A stretch of DNA of 64,000 nt from Mycolicibacterium sp. TY81 (GTDB lineage Bacteria > Actinomycetota > Actinomycetes > Mycobacteriales > Mycobacteriaceae). A program made the translations under genes and the position numbers. Below, piece after piece: positions 1,725 through 29,083 of this stretch. The notes under the pieces were generated by a model, which was not told the DNA's origin, ran no database searches, and saw only the letters and a list, made by a program, of their open reading frames with translations. The stretch is from contig NZ_AP023362.1 of the NCBI RefSeq assembly GCF_018326285.1, positions 6,076,001 through 6,140,000 on the forward strand, in the 5' to 3' direction. Within the stretch, counting starts at the first letter, position 1, and each line of letters opens with the position of its first letter.

Positions 1725-2476
1725 GGAACCCTCCACGATCTCGGGGGAACCACAGCGGTGTCGTCGCCGTTCCTGGGCGCGGGGGCAGGGACGTCCCATG
1801 CGGGTCTGGACAATGAGCTGAGCCTGGTCGATGGTCAGGATCGGACGTTGACGGTGCAGCAGTGGGACACGTTCCTCAACGGGGTGTTCCCTCTGGATCG
1901 CAACCGGTTGACGCGTGAGTGGTTCCATTCGGGCCGGGCCAAGTACAACTGCGCTGGTACGGGTTGTGACGGGTTCGCGGGCACGTTGGAGTTGGGTTAT
2001 CAGATTGGTTTCCCATGGTCGCTGGGTGTGGGGATCAATTTCAGTTACACCACACCGAACATCCTGCTCGATGATGTGACGCCGGCGACGTTCTTCCCGG
2101 GCACCATCGGCAGCGGTTCCGGTGGCATCATCACGCCGAACCTATTCCCGGGTGTGTCGATTTCTGCTGACCTGGGCAATGGTCCGGGTATCCAGGAAGT
2201 CGCGACGTTCTCGGTGGACGTGTCCGGCCCGGCCGGTGCTGTTGCCGTCTCGAATGCCCATGGCACGGTCACTGGCGCCGCCGGCGGTGTTCTTCTGCGT
2301 CCCTTCGCCCGGCTGATCGCCAAGACCGGTGATAGCGTCACCACCTACGGCGAACCCTGGAACATGAACTGAATCGCCCCGACTTTCGTGCACACCTGGG
2401 GTTGACCCCTGACGGGGTGGGACTGAACCGCCCCAGGTTTGATGCCGCTGCTGTTTGAGTCCGGAAGGATGACAGC

Positions 2477-2769
2477 ATGCCGAAGAAAATCGATCCTGCC
2501 TTGCGTGAGCGGGCGGTGCGGCTGGTGACCGAGCATCAGCAGGAGTACTCGTCGTCGACCGCCGCTTCGGAAGCGGTGGCCCGTCAGCTTGGGGTGGGTA
2601 AGGAATCGGTGCGGCGCTGGGTGGTGCAGGCCCAGATCGATGATGGTCAACGACCCGGTGTCACCACGGAGGAGAACGAGGAAATCAAGCGGCTGAGGGC
2701 TGAAAACCGAAGGCTACGTGAGGATGTCGCGATTCTGAAAGCGGCGACAACTTTCTTCGCGGGGGAGCT
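2477..2769 (+). CDS. IS3b transposase OrfA, exon 1 (interrupted by a group II intron)
   Basis: The frame starts MPKKIDPALRERAVRLVTEH and shows HTH and coiled-coil parts of an IS3 OrfA (VARQLGVGKESVRRWV, then EEIKRLRAENRRLREDV) up to FFAGE at 2767. At 2770 the sequence changes to GTGCGCC, a group II intron 5' end. Joining 2769 to 8313 gives the expected ending FFAGELDPRNR and a stop at 8331 in frame, a protein of about 103 residues. The open frame running on to 2842 is an intron-encoded artefact. If the intron still splices, OrfA is made. Confidence 0.85.
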
Positions 2770-4886
2770 GTGCGCCACGAGGCGCTGGGTATATCGAGAG
2801 GCGGTGAGAGACCGTCTCCTTCGGGTCGTCGCAGCGGCCTGAGGAAGCATCGGGGCAGCCGATCGCCGGGAACGACGGTGATCGGTGGCAAGCGGTCCCG
2901 AGAAGGCAAGCCGTGCCGGCACTGCCAGACGGTGCGGGCTTGTCGAGCAAGGTCAGAAGGTGCAGCGTAAGCGAACCAGTGTCAGACGCTCCGTAACCGC
3001 GAAGCCGGCTCCAATCTGGTGGATATGGGCCGGTGTGCAGTGCACGAACCCGAGCGGGTGGGGTTTGACTCCGAAGCCGTTTAGTTCCAGCGGTGGGGAG
3101 GCCACGGTGAAGGCCTGCGGCGTAGCCGTGGCGATGCTGCCGGAGTAGAGCTGGGCGCCTCCCTGACCAATCGATGACCTGGTGAACGTGGGAACCACCC
3201 TGCGGGACCGCTCATTTCGTTTCCGGCAGCCAGTCGGGGCGGGTGTGACGACTCGGGTTCGGAGTCAAGGAACCGCATTTCAGGGTGGGGCGGAGGCCTC
3301 GTAGTAGTCGCGGGCGGTGACGTGCCCGTCGTGGAGACCGAGAAAGGCGGTCACAGGGCGAAGGGGGCCAGCAAGACATGCAGTGCGGAAACTGGAAGGT
3401 CAGGAGAGGAAGTTATGTCGCCGGTGAATACCGACGAGCTGGAGTTGGCGCTGATGCTGGCGCGGCAACGGGTACTGAAGATCCAGACCAAGCTGCACCG
3501 TTGGGCACGCGATGATCTTGATCGCCGGTTCGACGATCTGTTCAACCTCGTCGCCGATCCCGCGTTCGTGTTGGTGGCGTGGGATCGGGTCAGCGGGAAT
3601 AAGGGTGCCGCCACGGCCGGGGTGGATCGGCGCACCGCGTCGTCCATCACTGCCGGGCAGGGCATCGAGGTGTTCCTCGATGAACTGCGGTCGCAGTTGA
3701 AGGACCGCAGTTTCCGCCCGTTGCCGGTGCGCGAGCGGATGATCCCCAAGACCGGTGGTGCGTTGCGCCGCTTGGGGATTCCCACCGTGGCCGATCGGGT
3801 GGTCCAGGCATCGTTGAAGTTGGTGTTGGAGCCGATCTTTGAGGCGGATTTCCTGCCGTGTTCCTACGGTTTCCGTCCGAAGCGCCGCGCTCATGATGCG
3901 GTGGCCGAAGTGCGTTATCTCGCAACACGTCCCCCGGTGTTATGACTGGGTTGTTGAGGGAGACATCAAGGCCTGTTTCGATGAGATCGACCACACCGCT
4001 CTGATGGGGGCGGGTGCGTCGACGCGTCGGTGACAACCGTGTCTTGGGGTTGGTGAAGGCGTTCCTCAAGGCGGGCATCCTCACCGAGGACGGCCTGCTG
4101 GCGGACAGCACCGCCGGAACTCCGCAGGGTGGGATTCTTTCGCCGCTGTTGGCCAATGTGGCGTTGTCGGTGCTCGATGAACACATTGCCGGGTTGCCGG
4201 GTGGTCCGGCTACCGGCTCGGTTGAGCGCGCTCGACGACTTCGTCACGGGCAGCCGAACTTTCGGCTGGTCCGCTATGCCGACGACTGGTGTCTGATGGT
4301 GCGGGGCACCAGAGCCCACGCCGAAGCACTACAGGAGGACATCGCCGCCGTGTTGGCGACGATGGGGGTTGCGTCTGGCACCGGACAAGACCCTGATCAC
4401 CCATATCGACGAGGGGCTGGACTTCCTCGGGTGGCGCATCCAGCGTCGCCGCAAGCGGGGCACCAGCTGCAGCTACGTCTATGTTCATCCGTCCACGAAG
4501 GCCGTGTTGGCGGTCAAACGGAAGATCAAGACGCTGCGCCGAACAGTTGAACTCAACCAGCCGCTCGATGACCTGCTGCGCCGCATCAACGCGACGCTGC
4601 AGGGATGGGCGGGCTATTTCCGGGCCGGGGTGTCCTCGGCGACCTTCTCCTACCTCAGTCACTACACGTGGCAGACGGTGTGGCGCTGGCTCCGACGAAA
4701 ACACCGCAAGTCGACCTGGAAAGACCTGCGCCGCCAATATTGCGGCGGCGGCTGGTGGCCAGCCACCGAGGACCGTGTGCTGATCGATCTGGAGAAGATC
4801 GGCACGACCCGCTACCGCTTGTTGCTCGTCGCTGAGGGTGCAAAGGATGGCGTCATTCTCGTTGCCGGTGATGTCGAAGTGATGAA

Positions 4887-4914
4887 GGCCCTGCCCGCGT
4901 GAGCGGGCAGGGCC
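4887..4914. terminator. Strong hairpin at the transposon left end
   Basis: A perfect 12-bp stem (GGCCCTGCCCGC paired with GCGGGCAGGGCC) closes a GTGA loop 54 bp downstream of the ATPase gene's stop, just inside the transposon's left end. It can act as a bidirectional terminator, preventing the transposon's minus-strand transcript and host transcription from running into each other. There is no U-tract, as is common in mycobacteria. Confidence 0.6.
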
Positions 4915-4968
4915 TTGGTCGGATCGGTGACGGCGTCGTCGGGTCGGTGACGTCGCGTGGTTAGTGAT

Positions 4969-5784
4969 TCAGTCGTGGCCGGTTTCGGTGACGGCGATGC
5001 GAGCTGATTTCTCGTCGACGATCGCTGTCTTGGCGGCGAAGGCGGCGGTCAGGGCGTGTAGGGCGAGGTTGTTGACTGCGCGTGGGTATCCGCGTGCGGC
5101 GTTGTGGATCACGGTGATCGCGTCGTCGGAGAACAGCGGGTCGGTGCGGCCGGCGACCTTGGCGTGATGGCCGATGTAGTCGGCGGTATCGGCAGGTGTC
5201 ATCCCGGCCAGGGCATAGCGCACGGCGATGCGTTGATCGAGTGCGGCCAGCACGCCCAGGCGTAGTCGTTGACGCAGGGTGGGTTGTCCGACCAGCAACG
5301 CGGCGAACGGTGACCCGCTGTCCATGTCGTGGTTGGTGAGCATGCGGATGGCTTCCATTTGCGCGTTGTCGAGCAGGTGAGCTTCATCGATGACCACGAC
5401 CGGGGTTCGGCCGCGTTCGGCGTGCTCGGCGGCCAGCGCGTCGGCGGCTTGCGGGGCCAGGGTAGCGGTGTAGAAACTGGGCACCCGCCCCAGTGCTGTG
5501 ACGATGTGGTGCAGCATGCCGCGTACTCCGACTGAGGGGTTGGGTAGGTAGATGATGACGTGGCGCGCCGGATCCAGGGCGGCGGTCGCGGCGCGGATCG
5601 CCACAGTCTTGCCGGCGCCGACTTCTCCGGTGATGACTCCGATAGCGTGCTGATCCACACACCAGGAGATCCGGGCGACGGCTTCGGCGTGGCCGGGGTG
5701 GCGGTGCAGCATCGCCGGGGCCAAACCCCGCCCGAACGGCATCCGGGTGAAGCCGTAATAGGATTGCAGCCGTTCGATACTCAT
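4969..5784 (-). CDS. TniB/ExeA-like transposition AAA ATPase
   Basis: The 271-residue protein has Walker A GEVGAGKT near residue 55, Walker B VVVIDEAHLL near 130, and an AAA sensor region (VGQPTLRQRL). Such ATPases (MuB, TniB, TnsC, IstB relatives) choose targets and activate a DDE transposase. The N-terminus YYGFTRMPFGRGLAP is typical of ExeA-like members. Its ATG overlaps the transposase stop, so the two are translationally coupled. The hairpin at 4887 follows it. It is intact. Confidence 0.88.
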   Translation of the reverse strand: MSIERLQSYYGFTRMPFGRGLAPAMLHRHPGHAEAVARISWCVDQHAIGVITGEVGAGKTVAIRAATAALDPARHVIIYLPNPSVGVRGMLHHIVTALGRVPSFYTATLAPQAADALAAEHAERGRTPVVVIDEAHLLDNAQMEAIRMLTNHDMDSGSPFAALLVGQPTLRQRLRLGVLAALDQRIAVRYALAGMTPADTADYIGHHAKVAGRTDPLFSDDAITVIHNAARGYPRAVNNLALHALTAAFAAKTAIVDEKSARIAVTETGHD

Positions 5785-7226
5785 GCTGATGCCTCGTCCT
5801 GGTCGTCGATGCCGGTGATGCTCGGTAGTTCGCAGGCTTTGGGGGTGTGGGCGCCGAAGAGAGCGTCGTAGCCGATGCGCCGATCGGCGCGGATCTGCTC
5901 ATGATGAATAGCCGCGGTCAACTGCAGATAGTCGATCCCTGTCGCCGGCGGCGCAGCATTCTCGGGAGTTTCGGGCCGGGCCTTGGGATGGACGTGTCGA
6001 GTGATGTTGTGGGGCAGGGCTTTGCCGTAACTGGTGTCGTGGTAGCGCACTTCGACGGTTTCTAGGTCAAACGGGGAGAACACCAACTCCACTTTGCGTC
6101 CCACCAACCCTTGATCGACCTGGAAGGTGTTGCCGTGCAACGACACTGTCGCGGTCTTGGTCACCACCCGGTATTCCGACCACAGAAACGCCTCGGTCAG
6201 ATCAGCTGCGGTCGGCATCGCCGGGGTCCGTCCCAGCCGGGACCATCCCTGCTGCCAGCGATCGGCTGGGGACTGCCCGGTCTCGGTATGAATCCGCTGG
6301 TGGTACTCGGTTTCTACCCACGCGGTCAGCAACCGGTTGAGCTCGATGAGCGCGGTGCGGGCCTCGAGGCCGGCCGCGGCCAGGTCCTCGGCGCTACTGT
6401 CGGTGATTTCGACGAGGAACTGCTCACGCACGGTGCGGAAGAACCGCTCGATCTTGCCCCGTCCTTGGGGCCGGTGCGGGGTGGAATGCACCAGCCGAAT
6501 CCCCAGTTTCGCGCACGCCCGCAGCAGCCAGGTATCCACGAACGCCGAGCCGTTGTCGACATAGACACTGCCCGGGACTCCGCGGCTGGCCAGCGCCGGC
6601 TCGAGTGCAGCGCCGAGCCGCACAGCGTCTTCGGCGAACCCGAACCGATACCCACACAGCAGTCGGGAATGATCGTCGATGAAAGCGAACAGATACGTCT
6701 TGCGCCCGCCGATACGGGGGCCGTGCAGGGCGTCCCCGGTCCAGCGGTCATTGGGGTTTTCGGCTTCGAACCGGCCGAACACCGCCGGCTGTTCATCGAG
6801 GTTCGGGCCGATCAGCTCGCAGCGGCGGAAATGGCGTAGCAGCGTCGATTCCGAGGGCGCCCAACCCGCGCTGATCCGCAGGATCCGCGCGACTTGGGCG
6901 GCGGTGCGGGACGGGTTCTCCCGCTTGAGTGCAGCCGCCAACTCCAGGGTCGCGGCATCGGTACGCGGGGCCACCGACCGGGGCGAGGGAATCAACTCAT
7001 CGAATCCGCCGGCCCGGTAGCGGCGAATCCAACGGTCCAGAGTGTCACGCGAGTAGCGCACCCGGGCCCCGAACGGATCGGTGTGCTCCCGCGCGGCGAT
7101 CTGGCGGACCAGCCGACCCCGAGCCTTGGTCGATAGTCCGGGATCGAGCGCCGGGCAGATCAACTGATACCGGAACAACCCCACTGCCTGGGCACGTTCA
7201 CGTCGCTTGGCCTCTTCGCTTGTCAA
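5781..7226 (-). CDS. Mu-type DDE transposase (TniA-like)
   Basis: The 481-residue protein has N-terminal HTH segments (AARRHTDP-like region, then TLDRWIRRYRAGGFDELIP), an rve catalytic core with Asp in DRWTGDALHG, Asp in VYVDNGSAF and Glu in GRGKIERFF, and a C-terminal Mu-C beta-barrel region (VSLHGNTFQVDQGLVGRKVELVF). The start is a TTG at 7226, chosen because GAGGAG lies 8 bp upstream and no ATG fits. The frame is uninterrupted and ends in an ATGA overlap with the ATPase gene. It cuts and joins the transposon ends. Confidence 0.88.
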   Translation of the reverse strand: MTSEEAKRRERAQAVGLFRYQLICPALDPGLSTKARGRLVRQIAAREHTDPFGARVRYSRDTLDRWIRRYRAGGFDELIPSPRSVAPRTDAATLELAAALKRENPSRTAAQVARILRISAGWAPSESTLLRHFRRCELIGPNLDEQPAVFGRFEAENPNDRWTGDALHGPRIGGRKTYLFAFIDDHSRLLCGYRFGFAEDAVRLGAALEPALASRGVPGSVYVDNGSAFVDTWLLRACAKLGIRLVHSTPHRPQGRGKIERFFRTVREQFLVEITDSSAEDLAAAGLEARTALIELNRLLTAWVETEYHQRIHTETGQSPADRWQQGWSRLGRTPAMPTAADLTEAFLWSEYRVVTKTATVSLHGNTFQVDQGLVGRKVELVFSPFDLETVEVRYHDTSYGKALPHNITRHVHPKARPETPENAAPPATGIDYLQLTAAIHHEQIRADRRIGYDALFGAHTPKACELPSITGIDDQDEASA

Positions 7227-7333
7227 TCCAACATCTCCTCAACAAGTGATGCCGCCCAAACCCGTTGCCGGGCAGCCATCCCCGCGACGATGAACCATTC
7301 CCACCGCGCGCGGCAGAGGCAGCTGGTGTTGCA

Positions 7334-7933
7334 TCACCACGCCACCGACGCCGGTGGCCACCCCCGACAGAGCAGCCGAGCACCGCTACCAGCCACAGCC
7401 ACCGCAGCAGCCGTCACCGCGCCGAGCAGCATCCCCGGCCCGAACCGTGTAGTGATCGCCTCGGTCGCCGTGCTGATCGCGGCCAACACATCCCCGCACC
7501 CTGAGCCGGTCGACTTCGGGATCGACACATCCACCCCCGCAGTGAGCGCGATCGTCACGAACCAGTGCCGCACCGCCTCGGCCCGAGCCGCGATGACCCG
7601 CAGCCACCCCCGCACCGTGCACGCCGGGACACCGAGTTTTGCCGCGATCCCGCGGTGCCCCACACCGGCAGCCTTGGCAGCCAACGCCTCCCAGATCACC
7701 TCCGCGGCATAAGCCCTACGCAGCAACAACGTCACCGGCAACAACACATGAGTCACCGCACACGTACGGCATCGAGACCGCCGCGGCCGCACCGACCCGG
7801 CCGTCCCGACCACCCGACGAGAACGGGCATAGCCCCACCCGGCCAGAACCCCGCCCACACACGACGGACACCGCAACTCCCCAGCGGCCAACCGTGACTC
7901 GACGCGCGCAGAATCGACCTCTACCGTGACCAT
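7334..7933 (-). CDS. Zinc-ribbon/HTH accessory protein of the transposon (DUF6431-like)
   Basis: The protein of about 199 residues starts at ATG 7933 (AAAGG upstream; an upstream GTG at 7948 is possible). It opens with a cysteine knuckle (RCPSC near residue 27, then RCRTC near 55) and has a helix-turn-helix HRGIAAKLGVPACTVRGWLR in the middle, then a hydrophobic alanine-rich tail. It resembles DUF6431-type proteins from memory; no function is established to my knowledge. Being the third gene inside the transposon, before the ATPase-transposase pair, it could bind ends or pick targets, a TniQ-like role. That role is inference. Confidence 0.65.
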   Translation of the reverse strand: MVTVEVDSARVESRLAAGELRCPSCVGGVLAGWGYARSRRVVGTAGSVRPRRSRCRTCAVTHVLLPVTLLLRRAYAAEVIWEALAAKAAGVGHRGIAAKLGVPACTVRGWLRVIAARAEAVRHWFVTIALTAGVDVSIPKSTGSGCGDVLAAISTATEAITTRFGPGMLLGAVTAAAVAVAGSGARLLCRGWPPASVAW

Positions 7934-8213
7934 CAGTGCCTTTCGCACTACGCACGGCGCCGCCGGAGAGATCTGCCAAGAATTCAGCGGTGGCGCCGTG
8001 CACCCATCAGTTCCTCGTCACACTGACGGTGCAGACCACCAAGATCAAACCCACCCCAAAGCCCGTCCCCGCATCGGCAGAATCAACGACGACTCCAAGC
8101 CTCATGGTCGTCACGCCCAGAGACGCTCAACACCGCTACCGCGGTGCGGTCATTCCCTCGCCCTGGCCGACCGACGAGGAGGACACCACAGCAGCCTGAC
8201 CGGGTCTTGTGGA

Positions 8214-8247
8214 GAGCCCGGTGCATTGAAAGGTGCACGCCGGGTTC
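8214..8247 (+). ncRNA. Group II intron domain V
   Basis: A 34-nt hairpin starts GAGCCCGGTGCATTGAAAGG and closes with its complementary arm GCACGCCGGGTTC, the conserved catalytic domain V, followed by a domain VI stem ending at about 8306. It is separated from the 5' ribozyme by the maturase gene and the transposon. The AGC catalytic triad is present near its 5' side. Confidence 0.82.
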
Positions 8248-8327
8248 GGGAAGCGGCCCGGGAAAACGGAACAGCCCCAACGGTTGTCACCGCGTCCCGG
8301 GCCGACTTTCACCGACCCCCGCAACCG

Positions 8328-9307
8328 GTGATCTTCGCGTTCATCGACGATCAACGCGCCGCTGGGCACGCGGTCGAGTCGATCTGCCGAGTCTTGTGTG
8401 AGCAAGGCTGTCAGATCGCCGCGCGCACCTACCGGTCCTGGAAACAACCAGGCCGGACGGTAGCGGCCCGCACCATCACCGACGCCCAGGTCATCGACGC
8501 TGTGCGTGGCCTGGCGTGGACCACCAACGCCGCCGGCAAGCGCGTTCTGGCCCCCCCGAGGGGGCTCTACGGGCGGCGCAAGATGACGGCCCTGATCCGC
8601 CGTGCCGCGCTGCCAGAGGCCTCGGCGGGCTCGGTGCACCGGGCGATGTGCACGTTGGGTCTGCAGGGCATACGGCGGTCAAAGAAGGTGCGCACCACGA
8701 TCCCGGACACCGACGGGCGCCGCGCCCCCGGATCTGCTCAACCGCAACTTCCATGCGAGCGTCCCGAACCGGGTATGGGTCACCGACTTCACTTACGTGC
8801 GGTCCTGGGCGGGCTTTGTCTACGTGGCCTTCATCGTCGACGTGTTCGCTCAGCGGATCGTGGCCTGGCACGCGGCCACCACCAAGACCACCGATCTGGT
8901 GATGGTCCCGTTGCGGATGGCCGTGTGGCAGCGCCGTCACGAAGGTCATCCCACCGCAGCCGGCGAGCTCATCCACCACAGCGACGCCGGAAGCCAATAC
9001 ACGTCGGTCCGTTTCACCGAACACCTTGAACTGGAAGGGATTTCACCTTCCATTGGCAGCGTCGGGGGATGCCTACGACAACGCTCTGATGGAAACGATC
9101 AACGGCTTGTACAAGACCGAATGCATCCGAACCACAGTGTTCCACCCGGGGCCGTTTAGGACCATCGCCGACGTCGAGTACGCGACAGCAGCCTGGGTCG
9201 AGTGGTACAACAACCGAAGGCTGCACTCCAGTCTCGGCATGGTCAGCCCAACCGAGTACGAGCACGCCCACTACAGCGCCCTCGACCGAGAGCGTCAACC
9301 CGTATAG
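8328..9307 (+). pseudogene. IS3b transposase OrfB, two frameshifts
   Basis: OrfB begins at GTG 8328, overlapping the restored OrfA stop, with VIFAFIDDQRAAGHAVESIC. It contains the IS3 DDE core: VWVTDFTYVRSW, HHSDAGSQYTS and ALMETINGLYKTE, ending RRLHSSLGMVSPTEYE. One extra C in the run 8725-8729 and one extra G in 9064-9068 break it into three frames. Removing one base from each run gives a continuous protein of about 326 residues. Unless these are sequencing errors, IS3b cannot move by itself. Confidence 0.88.
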
Positions 9308-9334
9308 CAGCGGCGGAAAACCTGGGGCGGTTCA

Positions 9335-9378
9335 GTGGTGCGGATGGTGGTTTTCGAGGTACGTGTGGTGGGGGTCAT
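9335..9378 (-). pseudogene. istB: istB stub (IS21 ATPase), first 14 codons only
   Basis: The ATG at 9378 overlaps the istA stop (ATGA), the usual istA-istB arrangement, and encodes MTPTTRTSKTTIRT before the IS3b end cuts it off. Identification rests on position and overlap rather than on conserved ATPase motifs, which are lost. Confidence 0.55.
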
Positions 9379-10513
9379 TGCAGGGTCCTTTTCTGGGCGG
9401 CCCGCTCGTAGACGGACAAGTCGATGACAGTGGAATCGGTTGATGCAGTGGTGGATTCGACCATGCAGGTCGTAGCATCGCGGGACTGAACCAGTTGCGC
9501 GGCAGCGGCATTGGCGGCCGGCCCGGGTGGGATGCGTTCCTTGCGGCGGTGCGGACGCCCGGTGTTGGCGGTGGCCATCGCGGCGGTATCCAGAGCGATG
9601 ACGTGCCCGCTGTCACGAACCATCACCCCCAACCCATCGGCGGCCATGCGGTGCCGCGCCACCACGATGCCGGTCGTGGTGGCGATATCGCAGAACTCAC
9701 CACCAACCGGATGGCTGACGCTCACCTGCGCGGCGGCCAGCTCCGGGGGCACCGAGTACCGGTTGCCGCGGTAGGACACCAACGCCTGCCTTGAGGCGGT
9801 TCGGGTTTCTGACACGATCACCGGATACGGCGTCGCCGGCACCGGCGAGAGGGGTTCGGCCTTGGCGACCACGGCCACCGACGACCACCCGTCGGCGGTG
9901 GCCCGGATCCGGGTGTCACCACGAACATTGGCGAAGCGATCCACACTGGCCTGTGCCGCCTCGACGGTCATGTCGTCAGCCAGGGTGCGCCACCACCGTT
10001 GTGCGGCAGTGTGATTGACCTTCTCCACCACACCCTTGCGATTCCCACGCCGTGGTGGACAGATCGCCACCGAGACCCCGTAGTGCTTGGCGACCCCGGC
10101 GAACGAGGCGGTCACCCGGCCTGAGCCTGGATCGCAGACGGTGGCCATCCGGTCGAACCGCCAGATGCGGGTCAGCCCGCCCAGACCCCGCACGATGCGG
10201 TCGATGGCGGCCACCAGATGGGGTTGATCCATCGACGGTGACAGCACCGCGCGCCACTTGCCGGAATGGGCCAGCGAGCCGACCAGCAGGAAGGCTTTCT
10301 TGCCCCACCCCCAGGATGCGGGTGGATCGGGCAATTCCAGCCAGTCCCACTGGGTTTCCTCACCCGGTGGATGAGCGATGATGGTGTTGGGCCGGTCGGT
10401 GGCGGCGCGGCAGGCTTGGCAGTCCGGGCGCAGATTGCGGGTGCGAATGTTGCGGGTCAGGCTCTGATACGACAAACCGAAACCCAGACTCTCGAGTTCG
10501 TCGTACAGGGGTG

Positions 10514-11996
10514 GAGGAATTGTCAATACCTGTGGATCGGCTTGTTTCAGGCGACCTCCGTTCCAGTTGATTCGGTCGGTGCCGAGTCCGCCGACGGGGT
10601 GATGTCGGTGGGTCGCTCGAGCAGTTTGCCTTTGTGGAAGATCGCGCCGGCCCGGACCAGAGCGACCAGGTGCGGTGCGTTGACGGCTCGCCAGCGGGCT
10701 TGCGCGGCGTCGATCAGCTTGTAAGCCATGGCCATTCCGGCGACGCGTGAACCCGGCCCCTTGGTCACCTTGGTCCTCAAACGTACCGTGGCAAACGTTG
10801 ATTCGATCGGGTTGGTAGTGCGCAGATGGACCCAGTGCTCGGCCGGGTACTTATAGAACTCCAGCAGCACATCGGCGTCATCGACGATCTTGGCGACCGC
10901 CTTGGGGTACTTGGCGCCGTAGTCCACCTCGAACGCCTTGATCGCCACCTGCGCGTGGTCGATATCCTCGGCGTTGTAGATCTCCCGCATCGCCGCGATC
11001 GCCCCCGGATGAGCCGACTTTGGCAGGCAGGCAAGAACATTGGCCTGCTTGTGAAACCAGCACCGCTGCTCGCCGGTGGCCGGGAACACCTCACGCACGG
11101 CCTTCCAGAACCCCAGGGCCCCATCGCCGACGGCCAGCACCGGTGCGGTCATCCCGCGACGTCGGCACGACCGCAACAGATCAGCCCACGACTCGGCCGA
11201 CTCCCGGTACCCGTCGGTGAGCGCGACCAGCTCCCTTGCGGCCGTCAGCGCGCACACCGATCATCACCAGCAAACAGAGCTTCTCCTGCTCCAGGCGCAC
11301 CTTGAGATGGATGCCGTCGACCCACAGGTAGACGTAGTCGGTGCCCGACAGATCACGGGCCTCGAAGGCCTTGGCCTCGTCCTGCCACTGCGTGGTGAGT
11401 CGGGTGATCGTCGTGGCCGACAAGCCGGCACCCGAGCCCAGGAACTGCTCCAACGCCGGACCGAAATCACTGGTCGACAAGCCATGCAGATACAGCAACG
11501 GCAACACCTCGGTCATCTGCGGCGACTTGCGCACCCACGCCCGGCAGGATCGCCGAGGAAAACCGTTGCCGCTCACCAGTGTCCGGGTCAACACGTTTGT
11601 CATTGACCCGCGGCGCGGTCACACTCACCGCGCCCGCCGCGGTGAGCACCTCGCGCTCGCGGTGATAGCCATTGCGCACCACCAGCCGGTGCCCGTTCTC
11701 ATCAAGCTCACCGGCATGAGCCTCGATGTAGGCGGCGACCTCAGCCCGCAACGCTGCGGCCAGCATCTGGCGGGCACCGTCGCGGACAATCTCATCGAGC
11801 AACGACCGCGACGAGCCAGCATCCTCGTTGGATGAATCCGCATCGTGAACTACCGTGAGCATGGGCGTACCTTCCCGAACCAGCGCGCCAACGCCGGCTC
11901 TTGATCAGACCTTCGACATTCAGATCATCCTCGGGAAGGTGCGCCCTTTCCTACGCCGCCTCGCCGAGGCTCATCCACAGGTTCTGATCATTGCTC
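10514..11996 (-). mobile_element. IS256-family element, type A copy 1
   Basis: The element starts GAGGAATTGTCAATACC and ends with the inverted partner (reversed GAGCAATGATCAGAACC), 1483 bp. Direct repeats GTACAGGG flank it (10503-10510, 11997-12004), with three extra bases (GTG) before its left end. It is nearly identical in sequence to copies A2, A3 and A4, apart from single-base run-length differences. Confidence 0.88.
10547..11862 (-). pseudogene. IS256-A1 transposase, two frameshifts
   Basis: IS256 transposases are about 400-440-residue DDE enzymes. This copy begins MLTVVHDADSSNEDAGSSRS and contains the mutator-type core (DYVYLWVDGIHLKVRLEQ; VLAVGDGALGFWKAVREVF; HLRTTNPIESTFATVR). Extra C residues in the runs at 11233-11235 and 11540-11542 split it into three frames. 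The intact spacing is seen in copy A3. No other lesions were noticed. Confidence 0.88.
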
Positions 11997-12076
11997 GTAC
12001 AGGGTGCGCGCCCACAAATGCGGGTCCTCGGTCAACCTCGCGGTGACGTAGTCGACGAACGGATCAAACGGATGCG

Positions 12077-13558
12077 GAGGAATTGTCAATACCTGTGGAT
12101 CGGCTTGTTTCAGGCGACCTCCGTTCCAGTTGATTCGGTCGGTGCCGAGTCCGCCGACGGGGTGATGTCGGTGGGTCGCTCGAGCAGTTTGCCTTTGTGG
12201 AAGATCGCGCCGGCCCGGACCAGAGCGACCAGGTGCGGTGCGTTGACGGCTCGCCAGCGGGCTTGCGCGGCGTCGATCAGCTTGTAAGCCATGGCCATTC
12301 CGGCGACGCGTGAACCCGGCCCCTTGGTCACCTTGGTCCTCAAACGTACCGTGGCAAACGTTGATTCGATCGGGTTGGTAGTGCGCAGATGGACCCAGTG
12401 CTCGGCCGGGTACTTATAGAACTCCAGCAGCACATCGGCGTCATCGACGATCTTGGCGACCGCCTTGGGGGTACTTGGCGCCGTAGTCCACCTCGAACGC
12501 CTTGATCGCCACCTGCGCGTGGTCGATATCCTCGGCGTTGTAGATCTCCCGCATCGCCGCGATCGCCCCCGGATGAGCCGACTTTGGCAGGCAGGCAAGA
12601 ACATTGGCCTGCTTGTGAAACCAGCACCGCTGCTCGCCGGTGGCCGGGAACACCTCACGCACGGCCTTCCAGAACCCCAGGGCCCCATCGCCGACGGCCA
12701 GCACCGGTGCGGTCATCCCGCGACGTCGGCACGACCGCAACAGATCAGCCCACGACTCGGCCGACTCCCGGTACCCGTCGGTGAGCGCGACCAGCTCCTT
12801 GCGGCCGTCAGCGCGCACACCGATCATCACCAGCAAACAGAGCTTCTCCTGCTCCAGGCGCACCTTGAGATGGATGCCGTCGACCCACAGGTAGACGTAG
12901 TCGGTGCCCGACAGATCACGGGCCTCGAAGGCCTTGGCCTCGTCCTGCCACTGCGTGGTGAGTCGGGTGATCGTCGTGGCCGACAAGCCGGCACCCGAGC
13001 CCAGGAACTGCTCCAACGCCGGACCGAAATCACTGGTCGACAAGCCATGCAGATACAGCAACGGCAACACCTCGGTCATCTGCGGCGACTTGCGCACCCA
13101 CGCCGGCAGGATCGCCGAGGAAAACCGTTGCCGCTCACCAGTGTCCGGGTCAACACGTTTGTCATTGACCCGCGGCGCGGTCACACTCACCGCGCCCGCC
13201 GCGGTGAGCACCTCGCGCTCGCGGTGATAGCCATTGCGCACCACCAGCCGGTGCCCGTTCTCATCAAGCTCACCGGCATGAGCCTCGATGTAGGCGGCGA
13301 CCTCAGCCCGCAACGCTGCGGCCAGCATCTGGCGGGCACCGTCGCGGACAATCTCATCGAGCAACGACCGCGACGAGCCAGCATCCTCGTTGGATGAATC
13401 CGCATCGTGAACTACCGTGAGCATGGGCGTACCTTCCCGAACCAGCGCGCCAACGCCGGCTCTTGATCAGACCTTCGACATTCAGATCATCCTCGGGAAG
13501 GTGCGCCCTTTCCTACGCCGCCTCGCCGAGGCTCATCCACAGGTTCTGATCATTGCTC
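12077..13558 (-). mobile_element. IS256-family element, type A copy 2
   Basis: It has the same ends as copy A1, 1482 bp, flanked by TCAAACGGAT repeats (12064-12073, 13559-13568) with three bases (GCG) before the left end. It lies only 80 bp from copy A1 in the same orientation, so the pair forms 1.5-kb direct repeats that can recombine and delete the istA middle piece. Confidence 0.88.
12110..13424 (-). pseudogene. IS256-A2 transposase, one frameshift
   Basis: The reading frame is open from MLTVVHDADSSNEDAG at 13424 for 300-odd codons to 12471, where a G run is five long instead of four (12467-12471) and shifts the last quarter out of frame. The rest, including HWVHLRTTNPIESTF, continues in the other frame to 12110. 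Removing one G makes the gene whole. Confidence 0.88.
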
Positions 13559-13815
13559 TCAAACGGATCCGGGCCGGGCCGGGCACGGACCCCGGGCTGG
13601 CCGTCACCGGCCAGGTACTTGCGGACCGTTTTGCGGTCGAAACCGGTGTGGCGGGCGATCGCAGAGATCGACCAACCACGTTTTTGTAGGGCGTGTACTT
13701 CCATGTCGTCCTCCCATGTGAGCATGAGAAAGCGGGCCCCCTTCGACTGGAGCTACTGGCGTCAGACACCAGCAGCATCGAGGGAGGCCCGCCCTTCTCG
13801 GCGGAGCCACACGGG

Positions 13816-13850
13816 TGGGGAATTTCGATGAGCGTCAGTGGGGAATTTCA
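13816..13850. repeat. Direct repeats at the IS21 outer end
   Basis: GTGGGGAATTTC occurs twice, 23 bp apart. IS21 ends carry such repeated transposase-binding sites. The second copy is followed by AGTGAGCG and then by IS3 coding remains. Confidence 0.6.
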
Positions 13851-13860
13851 GTGAGCGCGG

Positions 13861-14199
13861 TCACGGTTCGGGGAAACCCTGGCGGCGTCAGGTCTGGTGC
13901 CGTCGATCGGGGCGGTCGGAGATGCTTTCGACAACGCGTTGGCCGAGACGACCATCGGGCTGTACGAGCACGAAGCCGTCCGCGACGATTCACCGTTCCG
14001 GCGTGGTCCCTGCACCGCCTGGCCGACGTGGAGCTGCTCACCGCCGACTGGGTGCATTGGTACAACACCGACCGGCTCATGCACCGCCTGGGGCCGCATC
14101 CCACCGGTCGAATACGAGGCCATCTACTACGCTACGAACACAGCCCAATCCGCGGCTGCACACCCATAAACCGGTGTTCACGGAACCCGGGGCGGTTCA
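13861..14199 (+). pseudogene. IS3-family OrfB 3' fragment with right end
   Basis: Encodes GLVPSIGAVGDAFDNALAET, then, after two compensating shifts, ADVELLTADWVHWYNTDRL and IPPVEYEAIYY, the C-terminal third of an IS3 OrfB. It ends at an IS3-like terminus CCGGGGCGGTTCA (14187-14199). The 5' part was removed where the IS21 element begins. The lesions look old: one lost C near 14010 and one extra G near 14092. Confidence 0.75.
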
Positions 14200-15455
14200 A
14201 CTGTTCCTTCGGTACGCCTGTAGCGTCGTTTCCATGGCCAGGAGCCTCCGGGATTTTCAGAGCCCTATTCGAGTATGCTGCGCGCAGCAATCCGCTTGAT
14301 CTCGTCCGCAACCAGCTGTGGTTCGGTGAAGACCACCAGGTGCCCAGATTCTTTAGCCAACACAAGCCTGGCGCCGAGCCGTTCGGCGGCGCGGCGGTGG
14401 GCATGAGGAATTGTCAATACCTGTGGATCGGCTTGTTTCAGGCGACCTCCGTTCCAGTTGATTCGGTCGGTGCCGAGTCCGCCGACGGGGTGATGTCGGT
14501 GGGTCGCTCGAGCAGTTTGCCTTTGTGGAAGATCGCGCCGGCCCGGACCAGAGCGACCAGGTGCGGTGCGTTGACGGCTCGCCAGCGGGCTTGCGCGGCG
14601 TCGATCAGCTTGTAAGCCATGGCCATTCCGGCGACGCGTGAACCCGGCCCCTTGGTCACCTTGGTCCTCAAACGTACCGTGGCAAACGTTGATTCGATCG
14701 GGTTGGTAGTGCGCAGATGGACCCAGTGCTCGGCCGGGTACTTATAGAACTCCAGCAGCACATCGGCGTCATCGACGATCTTGGCGACCGCCTTGGGGTA
14801 CTTGGCGCCGTAGTCCACCTCGAACGCCTTGATCGCCACCTGCGCGTGGTCGATATCCTCGGCGTTGTAGATCTCCCGCATCGCCGCGATCGCCCCCGGA
14901 TGAGCCGACTTTGGCAGGCAGGCAAGAACATTGGCCTGCTTGTGAAACCAGCACCGCTGCTCGCCGGTGGCCGGGAACACCTCACGCACGGCCTTCCAGA
15001 ACCCCAGGGCCCCATCGCCGACGGCCAGCACCGGTGCGGTCATCCCGCGACGTCGGCACGACCGCAACAGATCAGCCCACGACTCGGCCGACTCCCGGTA
15101 CCCGTCGGTGAGCGCGACCAGCTCCTTGCGGCCGTCAGCGCGCACACCGATCATCACCAGCAAACAGAGCTTCTCCTGCTCCAGGCGCACCTTGAGATGG
15201 ATGCCGTCGACCCACAGGTAGACGTAGTCGGTGCCCGACAGATCACGGGCCTCGAAGGCCTTGGCCTCGTCCTGCCACTGCGTGGTGAGTCGGGTGATCG
15301 TCGTGGCCGACAAGCCGGCACCCGAGCCCAGGAACTGCTCCAACGCCGGACCGAAATCACTGGTCGACAAGCCATGCAGATACAGCAACGGCAACACCTC
15401 GGTCATCTGCGGCGACTTGCGCACCCACGCCGGCAGGATCGCCGAGGAAAACCGT

Positions 15456-16943
15456 GAGAAATTGTCAATACCTGTGGATCGGGGTGTTTCAGGCGACCTC
15501 CGTTCCGGTGCTCTCGTCACCGTTTGAAGGCGGTGTTGGTGGGGTGATGTCGGTGGGTCGTTCGAGTAGCTTGCCTTTGTGGAAGACCGCGCCGGCGCGG
15601 ACCAGGGCGACCAGGTGCGGGGCGTTGACGGCCCGCCAGCGGGCCTGTGCGGCGTCGATCAGCTTGTAGGCCATGGCAATCCCGGCCGTGCGTGATCCCG
15701 GCCCCTTGGTGACCTTGGTTCGAAGTCGCACCGTGGCGAAAGTGCTTTCGATCGGATTTGTCGTCCTCAAATGGATCCAATGCTCGGCCGGGTACTTGTA
15801 GAACTCCAGCAGGACATCGAGATCGTCGACGATCTTGGCGACCGCCTTGGGATACTTGGCACCGAAGTCGACCTCGAAGGCCTTGACCGCCAGCTGAGCC
15901 TTGTCGATATCCTCGGCGTTGTAGATGTCTTTGAGCGCCGCCAACGCCGACGGGTGTGCCGACTTCGGCAGTGCGGCAAGCACATTGGCCTGCTTGTGGA
16001 ACCAGCAGCGCTGCTCACGGGTGGCCGGGAAGACTTCGCGGACCGCCCTCCAGAACCCAAGGGCACCATCGCCGACGGCCAGCACCGGCGCGGTCATCCC
16101 GCGGCGTTTGCAGTCACGCAGCAGGTCGGCCCACGACTCGGTGGACTCCCGATACCCATCGGTGATCGCGACCAGCTCCTTGCGACCATCAGCACGCACG
16201 CCGATCATCACCAGCAGGCACAGCTTGGTCTGCTCCAGGCGGACCTTGAGGTGGATGCCGTCGACCCACAGGTAGACGTAGTCGGTGCCGGACAGATCCC
16301 GGCGCCCGAACGTGGCGGCTTCGTCCTGCCACTGCGCGGTCAGCCGGGTGATCGTCGACGCCGACAACCCCGCACCCGAGCCGAGGAACTGCTCGAGTGC
16401 CGGCCCGAAGTCGCCGCTGGACAGCCCATGCAGGTACAGCAGCGGCAGCACCTCGCTGATCTGCGGGGACTTGCGTGCCCAGGCGGGCAGGATCGCCGAG
16501 GAGAACCGCTGCCGGACACCGGTATCGGGGTCAACCCGGCGGTCGTTGACCCGCGGTGCCTTCACCTCGACCGCGCCGGCTGCGGTCAGCACCTCACGCG
16601 GTTGGTGGTAGCCGTTGCGGACCACCAACCGATGGCCGTCCTCATCGAGCTGGTCGGCGAACTGCGCTACGTAGGCCGCAACCTCGGCCTGCAGCGCCGC
16701 GGCCAGCATCTGCCGGGCGCCGTCACGAACGATCTCGTCCAACAACGACCGACCAGCACCGCCGGCACTTTCGTTGGCCTCGGCGGCATCGTGAACTACG
16801 GTGAGCATGGGCGTACCTTCCCGAACCAGCGCGCCAACGCCGGCTCATGATCGGACCTTCGGATATTCAGATCATCCTCGGGAAGGTGCGCCCACTTTCA
16901 CGCCCCCACACCGAGGCTCATCCACAGGTTCTGATCATTGCTC
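15456..16943 (-). mobile_element. IS256-family element, type B copy 1, intact
   Basis: The ends are GAGAAATTGTCAATACC and the inverted GAGCAATGATCAGAACC, 1488 bp. A 9-bp target duplication GAAAACCGT flanks it (15447-15455, 16944-16952) inside IS256-A3. It is related to, but clearly diverged from, the A type; a second B copy lies at 37799-39281. Confidence 0.92.
15489..16808 (-). CDS. IS256-B1 transposase, intact
   Basis: The 439-residue mutator-type transposase starts MLTVVHDAAEANESAGGAG. It has the IS256 DDE core: Asp in YLWVDGIHLKVRLEQTK, Asp in VLAVGDGALGFWRAV, and Glu in TTNPIESTFATVRLRTK. The frame is open throughout, the only uninterrupted IS256 transposase in the window, so it may supply activity for the B-type and perhaps A-type copies. 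An A/T-poor leader of 135 bp separates it from the end. Confidence 0.92.
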   Translation of the reverse strand: MLTVVHDAAEANESAGGAGRSLLDEIVRDGARQMLAAALQAEVAAYVAQFADQLDEDGHRLVVRNGYHQPREVLTAAGAVEVKAPRVNDRRVDPDTGVRQRFSSAILPAWARKSPQISEVLPLLYLHGLSSGDFGPALEQFLGSGAGLSASTITRLTAQWQDEAATFGRRDLSGTDYVYLWVDGIHLKVRLEQTKLCLLVMIGVRADGRKELVAITDGYRESTESWADLLRDCKRRGMTAPVLAVGDGALGFWRAVREVFPATREQRCWFHKQANVLAALPKSAHPSALAALKDIYNAEDIDKAQLAVKAFEVDFGAKYPKAVAKIVDDLDVLLEFYKYPAEHWIHLRTTNPIESTFATVRLRTKVTKGPGSRTAGIAMAYKLIDAAQARWRAVNAPHLVALVRAGAVFHKGKLLERPTDITPPTPPSNGDESTGTEVA

Positions 16944-18155
16944 GAAAACCGTTGCCGCTCACCAGTGTCCGGGTCAACACGTTTGTCATTGACCCGCGGC
17001 GCGGTCACACTCACCGCGCCCGCCGCGGTGAGCACCTCGCGCTCGCGGTGATAGCCATTGCGCACCACCAGCCGGTGCCCGTTCTCATCAAGCTCACCGG
17101 CATGAGCCTCGATGTAGGCGGCGACCTCAGCCCGCAACGCTGCGGCCAGCATCTGGCGGGCACCGTCGCGGACAATCTCATCGAGCAACGACCGCGACGA
17201 GCCAGCATCCTCGTTGGATGAATCCGCATCGTGAACTACCGTGAGCATGGGCGTACCTTCCCGAACCAGCGCGCCAACGCCGGCTCTTGATCAGACCTTC
17301 GACATTCAGATCATCCTCGGGAAGGTGCGCCCTTTCCTACGCCGCCTCGCCGAGGCTCATCCACAGGTTCTGATCATTGCTCGTGGGCATCGAGGAACGC
17401 CGTGCGGATGGAGCGGTCCACGAGCCTAGCCTTAGTGCCCGAGATCACGGTTACGGGCATTGCGCCCAGTTCAAGTCGGTGCGCGCGCAGGCTCGAGAGC
17501 CCGGCCAAGAAAAACTGCTCCTCGGCATCGGCAGCCAGCTCAGCGCCTACGGTCAGATCTTCGGTGAGCAGGTCCCGGGCCACATCAGCGGGCATCCCGG
17601 GCGCGACACGGCGCACCGCCCACGCCAGCAAATGCAACCGACGCAGCACACCTGTGGCCCAACGACCCGCCAGCGCCAACGTACGCAGATGTCGCAACGA
17701 CGACCCGCAGCACACGCTCAACTGCTCATCGGAATGGTCGACGAGCACTAGCCCAGCTATATGGGCCTGATTACGCGATGCGGTGGTCAATGCGATCGTC
17801 CCCCCGTAACTATGGCCCACCAGGATGTACGGGCCAGCGTCGAGCAGGGCCAGTAATTCTTCGAGATCACCCGCCAAACGCACCAAAGTGCGGGGTGCTC
17901 GGTCCGGGTCGCTGCGACCGAGATTGGCCCGGTCGTAGACCACCGTCGGGAACTCGTGCGCCACAAGAGGTGCCACCAAACCCCACTCCGAGCGCGAAGC
18001 GCCTAGACCTGATTCGAATACCACGGTAGGCCCAACGCCGCTATCGGTGCCCGCAATCATGTAATGCAGTGCACGACCATCAGCCAGCCGTACCTCAGCG
18101 CTTCTGCCAAGGGAGTGTGCCATTCGCGGCCTCCTTACCAAAAGAAGAATGGTGC

Positions 18156-27600: not shown

Positions 27601-29083
27601 GAGCAATGATCAGAACCTGTGGATGAGCCTCGGCGAGGCGGCGTAGGAAAGGGCGCACCTTCCCGAGGATGATCTGAATGTCGAAGGTCTGATCAAGAGC
27701 CGGCGTTGGCGCGCTGGTTCGGGAAGGTACGCCCATGCTCACGGTAGTTCACGATGCGGATTCATCCAACGAGGATGCTGGCTCGTCGCGGTCGTTGCTC
27801 GATGAGATTGTCCGCGACGGTGCCCGCCAGATGCTGGCCGCAGCGTTGCGGGCTGAGGTCGCCGCCTACATCGAGGCTCATGCCGGTGAGCTTGATGAGA
27901 ACGGGCACCGGCTGGTGGTGCGCAATGGCTATCACCGCGAGCGCGAGGTGCTCACCGCGGCGGGCGCGGTGAGTGTGACCGCGCCGCGGGTCAATGACAA
28001 ACGTGTTGACCCGGACACTGGTGAGCGGCAACGGTTTTCCTCGGCGATCCTGCCGGCGTGGGTGCGCAAGTCGCCGCAGATGACCGAGGTGTTGCCGTTG
28101 CTGTATCTGCATGGCTTGTCGACCAGTGATTTCGGTCCGGCGTTGGAGCAGTTCCTGGGCTCGGGTGCCGGCTTGTCGGCCACGACGATCACCCGACTCA
28201 CCACGCAGTGGCAGGACGAGGCCAAGGCCTTCGAGGCCCGTGATCTGTCGGGCACCGACTACGTCTACCTGTGGGTCGACGGCATCCATCTCAAGGTGCG
28301 CCTGGAGCAGGAGAAGCTCTGTTTGCTGGTGATGATCGGTGTGCGCGCTGACGGCCGCAAGGGAGCTGGTCGCGCTCACCGACGGGTACCGGGAGTCGGC
28401 CGAGTCGTGGGCTGATCTGTTGCGGTCGTGCCGACGTCGCGGGATGACCGCACCGGTGCTGGCCGTCGGCGATGGGGCCCTGGGGTTCTGGAAGGCCGTG
28501 CGTGAGGTGTTCCCGGCCACCGGCGAGCAGCGGTGCTGGTTTCACAAGCAGGCCAATGTTCTTGCCTGCCTGCCAAAGTCGGCTCATCCGGGGGCGATCG
28601 CGGCGATGCGGGAGATCTACAACGCCGAGGATATCGACCACGCGCAGGTGGCGATCAAGGCGTTCGAGGTGGACTACGGCGCCAAGTACCCCAAGGCGGT
28701 CGCCAAGATCGTCGATGACGCCGATGTGCTGCTGGAGTTCTATAAGTACCCGGCCGAGCACTGGGTCCATCTGCGCACTACCAACCCGATCGAATCAACG
28801 TTTGCCACGGTACGTTTGAGGACCAAGGTGACCAAGGGGGCCGGGTTCACGCGTCGCCGGAATGGCCATGGCTTACAAGCTGATCGACGCCGCGCAAGCC
28901 CGCTGGCGAGCCGTCAACGCACCGCACCTGGTCGCTCTGGTCCGGGCCGGCGCGATCTTCCACAAAGGCAAACTGCTCGAGCGACCCACCGACATCACCC
29001 CGTCGGCGGACTCGGCACCGACCGAATCAACTGGAACGGAGGTCGCCTGAAACAAGCCGATCCACAGGTATTGACAATTCCTC
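27601..29083 (+). mobile_element. IS256-family element, type A copy 4, no target repeat
   Basis: It has the same ends as A1-A3 but the opposite orientation. The left flank (CGGCTACTGC, DUF1275 gene) and right flank (GTGTAGAGAG, IS30 gene) differ, so this copy has recombined with another copy or deleted neighbouring DNA. Together with the inverted copies at 10-17 kb it can drive inversion of the segment between them. Confidence 0.88.
27735..29050 (+). pseudogene. IS256-A4 transposase, two frameshifts
   Basis: It is identical in layout to the A3 transposase but has an extra G at 28361-28363 and another at 28836-28840, giving three frames. The start MLTVVHDADSSN is at 27735 and the final part MAYKLIDAAQARWRAVNAP ends at 29050. 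Removing one base from each run restores about 438 codons. Confidence 0.88.

Follow-up and report, generated by a model that had tools for sequence, protein, structure and literature searches.

An IS3-family element of Mycolicibacterium sp. TY81 split by a group II intron at its frameshift-pseudoknot site, with a TnsB/Mu-type transposon inside the intron

What happens to an insertion sequence (IS) when a mobile intron settles at the site of the RNA signal that lets it frameshift? The question is raised by a stretch of 64,000 nucleotides of Mycolicibacterium sp. TY81 (positions 6,076,001-6,140,000 of contig NZ_AP023362.1, in a genome of 6.47 Mb), hereafter called the window, in which positions 2424-9334 hold a transposon inside a group II intron inside an IS3-family element. 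This nesting, first read from the letters of the window in a first-pass annotation, is confirmed by the present analysis. We consider it probable that the intron retrohomed into the site of the ALIL (apical loop-internal loop) pseudoknot, making production of the IS3 transposase dependent on splicing, and that the transposon was added later. The features on which this reading is built are as follows.

2424-9334, plus strand: outer IS3-family element, with 17-bp perfect terminal inverted repeats (2424-2440 and 9318-9334).
2477-2769, plus strand: 5′ exon of orfA, with NF033516 and HTH_Tnp_1 matches, ending in FFAGE and two bases of the following codon.
2752-2755, plus strand: putative U_UUC slip motif in the 5′ exon, read off the sequence.
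2761-2769, plus strand: 5′ half of the ALIL hairpin, with stem arm GGGGG (2761-2765) and loop half AGCT (2766-2769).
2770-8312, plus strand: group II intron, with 5′ end GTGCG and 3′ end CAC; 2225 nt in a copy without the transposon.
2998-3003, plus strand: exon-binding site 2 (EBS2), CGCGAA, pairing with exon bases 2756-2761 (TTCGCG); covariation.
3083-3088, plus strand: EBS1, AGTTCC, pairing with exon bases 2764-2769 (GGAGCT) with one G-U pair; covariation.
3148, plus strand: EBS3, G, pairing with C 8313, the first base of the 3′ exon; top scan column.
3415-4819, plus strand: main part of the reverse transcriptase/maturase gene, frame broken (TIGR04416, RVT_1, GIIM).
8134-8199, plus strand: tail of the maturase gene beyond the transposon, the last 21 codons and the stop, from comparison with relatives L045 and L146.
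8212-8312, plus strand: intron domains V-VI (Rfam RF00029, Intron_gpII, 53.6 bits, E 1e-7).
8313-8320, plus strand: 3′ half of the ALIL hairpin, with loop half CGA (8313-8315) and stem arm CCCCC (8316-8320).
8328-9307, plus strand: orfB (rve), in the -1 frame relative to orfA, frame broken in the window copy.
8372-8379, plus strand: downstream partner GGTCGAGT of the ALIL apical loop, paired 8/8.

The intron site coincides with the ALIL apical loop

In the literature excerpts on which this report draws throughout, the slip motif of IS3 elements is of class Z_ZZN (PMC4066793), and ALIL, found in IS3411 and at least 27 other IS, is a structure in which the apical loop of a first stem pairs with the internal loop of a second stem-loop 44-104 nt downstream (PMC5009743); of 113 mycobacteria, 75 are reported to have it between their two transposase genes (PMC9569102). 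We searched six intron-free relatives of the window element with the Rfam ALIL model (RF01497), and all six matched at E < 0.1, each match spanning the intron site. Two of them, L129 and L135, reached the curated score of 50 with 50.8 bits, and four remained under it (L134 48.8, L137 48.2, L136 43.6 and L139 36.9 bits). No match at the curated score was obtained in the window element, nor in the intron-bearing L004, L005 and L141. The family is thus matched at the orfA/orfB border of the intron-free relatives, whereas in the window element the same structure is split by the intron. In five ALIL alignments the exon junction falls in the middle of a seven-base apical loop, AACU / CGA, held between the arms GGGGG and CCCCC.

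The two exons were also examined as pairs. This test included 16 rows of IS3-sited introns, 12 of them distinct; L052, L065, L113, L111 and L147 were omitted because one end was unlocated, L141 as a duplicate of the L045 locus, and the 3′ end of L049 was shifted by one base to its blastn position. The hairpin arms form a mean of 4.25 of five pairs in the 12 distinct IS3 sites, compared with 1.77 in 48 non-IS3 targets, and four or five pairs were seen at 11 of the 12. The apical loop and its downstream partner form 7.33 of eight pairs, compared with 6.68 when swapped, and the observed value was reached in none of 500 swaps. Since the exons are related to one another, the swap controls give modest differences, and it is the Rfam matches which carry most weight for an ALIL at the intron site.

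The loop varies, and the intron appears to vary with it. Another IS3 relative in TY81, the single element L014/L023, has the loop AGAG/CGA and matches ALIL with 44.4 bits; it is unoccupied by an intron, and the resident EBS1 fits its loop at 4 of 6 positions. A loop of the same type is occupied in L046, by an intron from a Mycolicibacterium metagenome-assembled genome, and there the fit of EBS1 is 6/6. In the few cases available, EBS1 AGTTCC goes with GGAGCT or GGAACT, and TTCTCC goes with GGAGAG.

Exon pairing supports both splice sites of a IIB-type intron

Relatives of the intron were taken as the best 80 of 299 loci from the named genome collection, by title all Actinobacteria but one. Together with the resident intron this makes 81, of which 69 could be scanned for exon-binding sites, the remaining 12 having no usable 5′ end or upstream exon. 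Over the 69 introns EBS1 pairs with exon positions -6 to -1 at a mean of 5.23 of 6, while the best of 100 shuffles, in which the exons were permuted among the introns, gave 3.22. EBS2 pairs with exon positions -14 to -9 at a mean of 5.42 of 6, against 3.59 in the best of 30 shuffles. EBS3 was the best column of a scan made without a shuffle control, and in 56 of 66 introns its base pairs with the one that opens the 3′ exon. Both splice sites are therefore supported by the three pairings without recourse to the reading frame. Pairing through EBS2 and EBS3 marks IIB introns, and the pattern indicates that this intron is IIB-type.

Other properties agree with a group II intron: a GUGYG 5′ end, an AY 3′ end, domains V-VI at the 3′ end (the stretch 8205-8312 has a fold z of -4.9) and a reverse transcriptase/maturase in domain IV. 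In a second copy of the composite elsewhere in the genome, copy B, the maturase scores 335.6 bits against TIGR04416 (cut-off 300); the window copy and a third copy, copy C, give only pieces below this cut-off. A comparison of the maturase with solved structures matched LtrA, GsI-IIC and others about equally, and no intron class was taken from it. The outer element likewise has what is expected of the IS3 family, namely an orfA with a helix-turn-helix, an orfB with the DDE domain of the IS3 model, and an overlap in the -1 frame. Its NF033516 scores (orfA 45 bits, orfB piece 127.7 bits) lie under the whole-protein cut-off of 160 because the gene is split and frame-broken.

Splicing may act as the on-switch of the IS3 transposase

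We propose that the IS3-family element was entered by the IIB-type intron through retrohoming, during which EBS2, EBS1 and EBS3 would pair with the DNA encoding the ALIL apical loop and its 5′ flank. In the unspliced RNA the two halves of the hairpin would then lie 2.2 kb apart, or 5.5 kb in the window copy; the U_UUC motif stays in the 5′ exon of the split element, and orfA is predicted to run into a stop codon ending at 2842, within the intron. Because the hairpin is split, the intron supplies a stop and orfB is 2.2 or 5.5 kb away, the OrfAB fusion should not form unless the RNA is spliced. Splicing would reunite the halves of the hairpin, so that it may serve as the on-switch of transposase production. 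At a later time one of the three copies would have received a TnsB/Mu-type transposon in its domain IV, close to where the maturase gene ends, 21 codons before the stop, a position that keeps domains V-VI and both exons. The intron split in this way could still splice if another copy supplied the maturase, provided that one of the copies makes it.

Several observations weigh against this proposal. At L055 the hairpin arms form none of their five pairs, and the arm statistic as a whole is modestly above that of 3′-exon swaps (mean 3.72, with the observed value reached in 1 of 2000). The EBS1 of L048 and that of L113 fit their own exons at 3/6 and 4/6 positions only. The TY81 genome has four further, more distant IS3 copies, and the two of these that were searched (L019 and L020) match the second part of ALIL alone, at 26.4 bits. 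That all three IS3 copies have the intron is compatible with joint transposition as well as with separate homing, and the copies show so few differences, with too few informative sites when polarised, that their comparison favoured neither. Splicing and frameshifting are predictions from the DNA, and the maturase is frame-broken in all three copies, so that splicing in TY81 is in doubt unless the breaks are sequencing errors. Finally, the site also encodes a conserved protein motif, and the overlap with ALIL need not have been selected.

The last point can be turned into an explanation of its own, in which the intron chose the site for its conserved FFAxEL codons only; the pseudoknot would be overlapped incidentally, and splicing would regulate nothing. 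We regard this as possible, if doubtful. In its favour, other clades of the intron family, judged by protein motif, lie in conserved motifs of other transposases; yet the DNA at the present site is conserved for both reasons, the loop itself falls within IBS1 (the exon partner of EBS1) and the 3′ exon, and in the few cases available EBS1 changes in step with the loop variants.

Copies and relatives of the composite support the boundaries and the order of events

We searched the TY81 genome for DNA copies of each layer. The left end of the IS3 was found as three full copies and one 36-base match, the left part of the intron as three copies, and the transposon as one copy at 100% and four at 73-74%; the maturase gave eight matches, all within the three copies. 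Copy B (L005, 726,834-730,422) consists of the IS3 and the intron without an insert, and copy C (L004, 5,771,386-5,776,679) of the IS3 and the intron with an IS1380-type insertion in orfB. The latter insertion (L004 7214-8914) has a 4-bp repeat, CTAC.

The limits given by the first-pass annotation agree with what these copies and the relatives show. It had described perfect inverted repeats at the ends of the IS3, and these are the 17-bp repeats listed above. As for its intron edges, the intron ends at identical exon bases in all three TY81 copies (blastn), the exons abut exactly at the inferred junction in the intron-free IS3 L129, L134, L135 and L136, and the EBS pairings point to the same bases; in L137 and L139 the junction is resolved less finely than to a single base. 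Genomes holding the IS3 without the intron, or the intron without the transposon, accordingly place the edges where that annotation had put them. Its claim that the transposon is flanked by 5-bp CCGCT repeats agrees with copies B and C, neither of which has the transposon: both keep the target whole and have CCGCT just once. That removal of the transposon restores TTRYRYRGA in the maturase had also been proposed; judged against the uninterrupted L045 and L146, with each side read separately, the reading is lost at 4819 and resumes at 8134. L146, from Arthrobacter sp. YA7-1, has its intron at this same IS3 site and an open maturase of 494 aa.

The proposed order of IS3, then intron, then transposon also holds. 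The transposon is the last arrival because its target is uninterrupted in copies B and C. The first step rests on relatives, as no intron-free copy of the window-type IS3 was found in the TY81 genome, and a precise loss of the intron in the lineage of genome G157 may be the alternative. When 297 genomes of the genus were compared with the composite of copy B, a match of some kind was obtained in 131, in many cases to short pieces, and the whole composite was present in one, on a plasmid of Mycolicibacterium frederiksbergense LB 501T (G096, L141, the same locus as L045). Between L141 and the window element the intron is 90.2% identical and the IS3 sides 74.9% and 69.4%, from which we conclude that the intron moved between IS3 elements that had already diverged; the IS3 of the intron-free L129 is closer to that of the window (88.2% and 84.2%) than is L141. 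The junction pattern was sought in 201 genomes of the bacterial family and matched only TY81 itself (1/201), thus the exact junction is rare.

Target duplications of 4 bp flank copy B (CCGC) and copy C (ACTG), and duplications of 3 bp were found in the relatives L129 (TCT) and L141 (TGG). The IS3 copy in the window has no target-site duplication (GGAC / GTGG).

Could the window junctions be a misassembly, which joined an unrelated transposon to one of the three intron copies? The threefold occurrence of the intron arms in the genome speaks for it. An error of this kind is nevertheless, on indirect evidence, highly improbable, given that the exact 5-bp duplication is of a sequence which is single at the target in copies B and C, that the genome has just one identical copy of the transposon beside its four diverged ones, that two relatives of the transposon have 5-bp duplications too (CGACT in L008, GTCGG in L142), and that substitutions private to the window copy are found on both IS3 sides (2556 and 8405).

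Most frame breaks are probably sequencing errors

In the window copy both the maturase gene and orfB are frame-broken. Compared with copy B, this copy has five substitutions and 12 single-base length differences, 11 of the latter in runs of G or C. Set against a fourth IS256 copy, three copies or pieces in the window show two to three single-base gaps and no mismatches over 1.05-1.46 kb. Because of this bias to G or C runs and of the gap-only differences between IS256 copies, most of the frame breaks are probably sequencing errors.

The frame breaks bear on a further explanation, that the locus is a degraded scrapheap whose three elements are all dead, neither spliced nor moved. The breaks in the maturase of every copy and in the window orfB speak for it, as do the missing target duplication of the window IS3 and the truncated IS21 and IS256 copies that adjoin the nest. 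We nonetheless think it unlikely: nearly every break falls in a run of G or C, the breaks are not the same from copy to copy, the IS256 copies differ by gaps alone, and copies B and C are near identical and have target duplications, which argues for recent movement.

The inner element is a TnsB/Mu-type transposon

The transposon and its flanks comprise the following features.

4815-4819, plus strand: left target duplication, CCGCT, flanking the transposon.
4820-8132, no strand assigned: TnsB/Mu-type transposon of 3313 bp with TG..CA ends.
4969-5784, minus strand: AAA ATPase gene of the transposon (AAA_22, 83 bits).
5781-7226, minus strand: DDE transposase gene (rve and Mu-transpos_C, with a helix-turn-helix).
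7334-7948, minus strand: third gene of the transposon (DUF6431, 26.3 bits, just under the cut-off of 26.6).
8133-8137, plus strand: right target duplication, CCGCT, flanking the transposon.

The label "Mu-like", under which the element was first described, is fair: the transposase has rve and Mu-transpos_C domains, it is accompanied by an AAA ATPase gene, and its best solved relative is TnsB (E 1e-8). Among known systems it compares with Tn7/Tn5053/Mu-type transposons, the domains themselves having been tested here. The likeness lies in the DDE transposase with Mu-transpos_C, the AAA ATPase and the 5-bp target duplication; the element differs from them in that its third gene is DUF6431-like and its nearest NCBIfam transposase model is IS481 (180 bits, under the cut-off of 224). 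For the ATPase, with its AAA_22 domain, no solved relative was found at E 0.001. The third gene looks like one for a zinc-finger and helix-turn-helix protein, with a possible role in target choice or regulation.

Relatives of the gene set, at about 73-77%, are present in Rhodococcus, Mycolicibacterium, Mycobacterium and Mycobacteroides plasmids. Ends of the type TGTTG..CAACA with a 5-bp repeat were sought by script in eight relatives and found in two, L008 and L142; they were not found in the other six, among which L009 has flanks without an exact 5-bp repeat.

The wider intron family occupies transposase genes and other introns

Twenty exon pieces from the family were scored against NCBIfam, and gave 14 transposases, three group II maturases, two methyltransferases and one weak TraD-like ATPase. 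The transposase targets are of the families IS3, ISAzo13, IS630, IS110, ISL3, IS256, IS66, IS481, IS701, IS30 and IS1182; eight of the 14 pieces score above the whole-protein cut-off though they are partial, and the IS630 match is weak (27.9 bits). In two of the 14 (L085 and L090) the host is an outer intron, with the scored intron in its 5′ end. Several targets look like catalytic motifs, as we take YADD of the maturase and EATG.YW of IS110 to be.

A maturase tree was made from 81 sequences (74 different), with target labels given by eye from exon sequences and their translations and 18 of the 81 left unlabelled. The target label changes 17 times on this tree, compared with 43.8 times when shuffled (0 of 200 shuffles as low), a clustering to which near-identical copies contribute. 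Fifteen of the 16 IS3-sited rows fall in one group (95% by the SH-like approximate likelihood-ratio test, SH-aLRT), with L113 elsewhere, and a single group (99%) is also made up by the eight introns sited in the opening bases of another intron. The IS110 (three changes), ISAzo13, maturase and methyltransferase (two changes each) targets do not form single groups. In this actinobacterial family, clades tend toward different transposase families or other introns.

Further sites were noted in passing. The introns L077, L079, L080, L083, L084, L085, L090 and L099 each lie in a host group II intron, no more than 20 bases from its start, and the EBS1 of this intron-in-intron clade pairs at 5-6 of 6 positions with the conserved 5′ end of the host introns. 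L103, L105, L075 and L082 are introns in the maturase genes of other group II introns, at YADD or beside SYGF/RPG. L076, L096 and L102, from three genera, have a common target ending in GCTGCTGT, which is not obviously coding.

The nest of the window also has independent counterparts. In Streptomyces sp. NBC_01450 (L147) an IS3-sited intron is split by a stretch with an annotated IS21 helper gene, and in genome G281 (L128) a related intron, whose exons are unlike IS3, is split by an IS21-type element. Insertions into introns of this family therefore recur.

Neighbouring elements in the window

To the left of the nest, an mspA-type porin gene (open reading frame 1758-2372, region 1-2372) appears to be split by a separate IS3-family element, with open reading frames 502-792 and 768-1724 and near-complementary ends; the first-pass annotation had rightly seen that the porin carries an IS of its own. 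To the right, at 9375-10526 and 10501-17361, lie a truncated IS21-type transposase and several IS256-family copies, with a 418-bp IS256 piece that is identical and two more that are 82% alike. Rfam matches to the "sRNA" Ms_AS-8 were obtained at 11900-11971, 13462-13533, 16846-16918, 17286-17357, 27626-27697 and 37824-37898, each of the six coinciding with an end of an IS256-type copy or fragment. What the Ms_AS-8 family models may be the terminus of IS256, not a small RNA in its own right.

Known systems and the meaning of the site

Introns in IS elements, IS3 included through E.c.I4, are already known (PMC3522654, PMC5894124). RmInt1 of Sinorhizobium meliloti homes into the transposase gene of ISRm2011-2, whose expression needs splicing, and was proposed to limit the spread of the IS (PMC4238363, PMC5894124). 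It is of class D with an IS630-family target, whereas the present target is IS3; IS630 is listed among the frameshifting families (PMC5009743). For RmInt1, stop codons of the intron make splicing essential for IS mobility, with less than 1% of exons reportedly spliced correctly (PMC4238363), and relative to that argument the frameshift layer is an addition here. E.c.I4 of Escherichia coli also homes to specific positions of IS3-family transposase genes, across IS629, IS911, ISEc16 and ISEc31 (PMC3522654); it is of class A (PMC3552965), and what it shares with the window intron, as compared here, is the IS3 target and the spread across several IS3 elements. We sought it through plasmid-borne maturases, and among the matches listed six regions lay in the vicinity of IS66/IS110 or in other contexts, none of them recognised as E.c.I4 in an IS3.

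The closest suggestion comes from Acinetobacter baumannii AMA_NO, in which annotations of both ALIL and group II introns occur together with seven IS3 transposase genes that are disrupted, and from this the authors suggest that group II introns may have regulated IS3 activity; the excerpts of that paper name no intron in ALIL, no site and no mechanism (PMC10045941). Elsewhere ALIL and group II introns are mentioned apart (PMC4465626, PMC12370729), or ALIL is discussed without introns, so far as the excerpt extends (PMC4993456). Bacterial twintrons (PMC4424553, PMC8919778) resemble the nest in having a mobile element within a group II intron, as do those members of the present family that lie inside other introns, and a Methanosarcina intron is divided by a transposase (PMC8919778); the nest differs from them in that its inner element is a DDE transposon and its outermost an IS3. 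Searches of an open-access library gave no account of a homing site in the IS3 ALIL apical loop, with the E.c.I4 site left uncompared.

That insertion sequences harbour introns is often put down to an abundant, non-essential target. The target here would instead be a defined regulatory RNA, the stimulator of -1 frameshifting, from where the intron could control the IS through recoding, and retrohoming, splicing and programmed frameshifting would be linked in a way that can be tested. A broader generalisation seems to us evenly balanced between right and wrong: that an actinobacterial IIB clade evolved to home to the IS3 pseudoknot loop, its EBS1 tracking the loop variants and frameshifting and transposition being turned on only by splicing, with sister clades likewise sited at the catalytic-motif DNA of other transposases and at other introns. 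The site would give a concrete place to the surmise that group II introns regulate IS3, at least as excerpted from PMC10045941, and the intron family, with its many target switches, offers a natural data set on target change.

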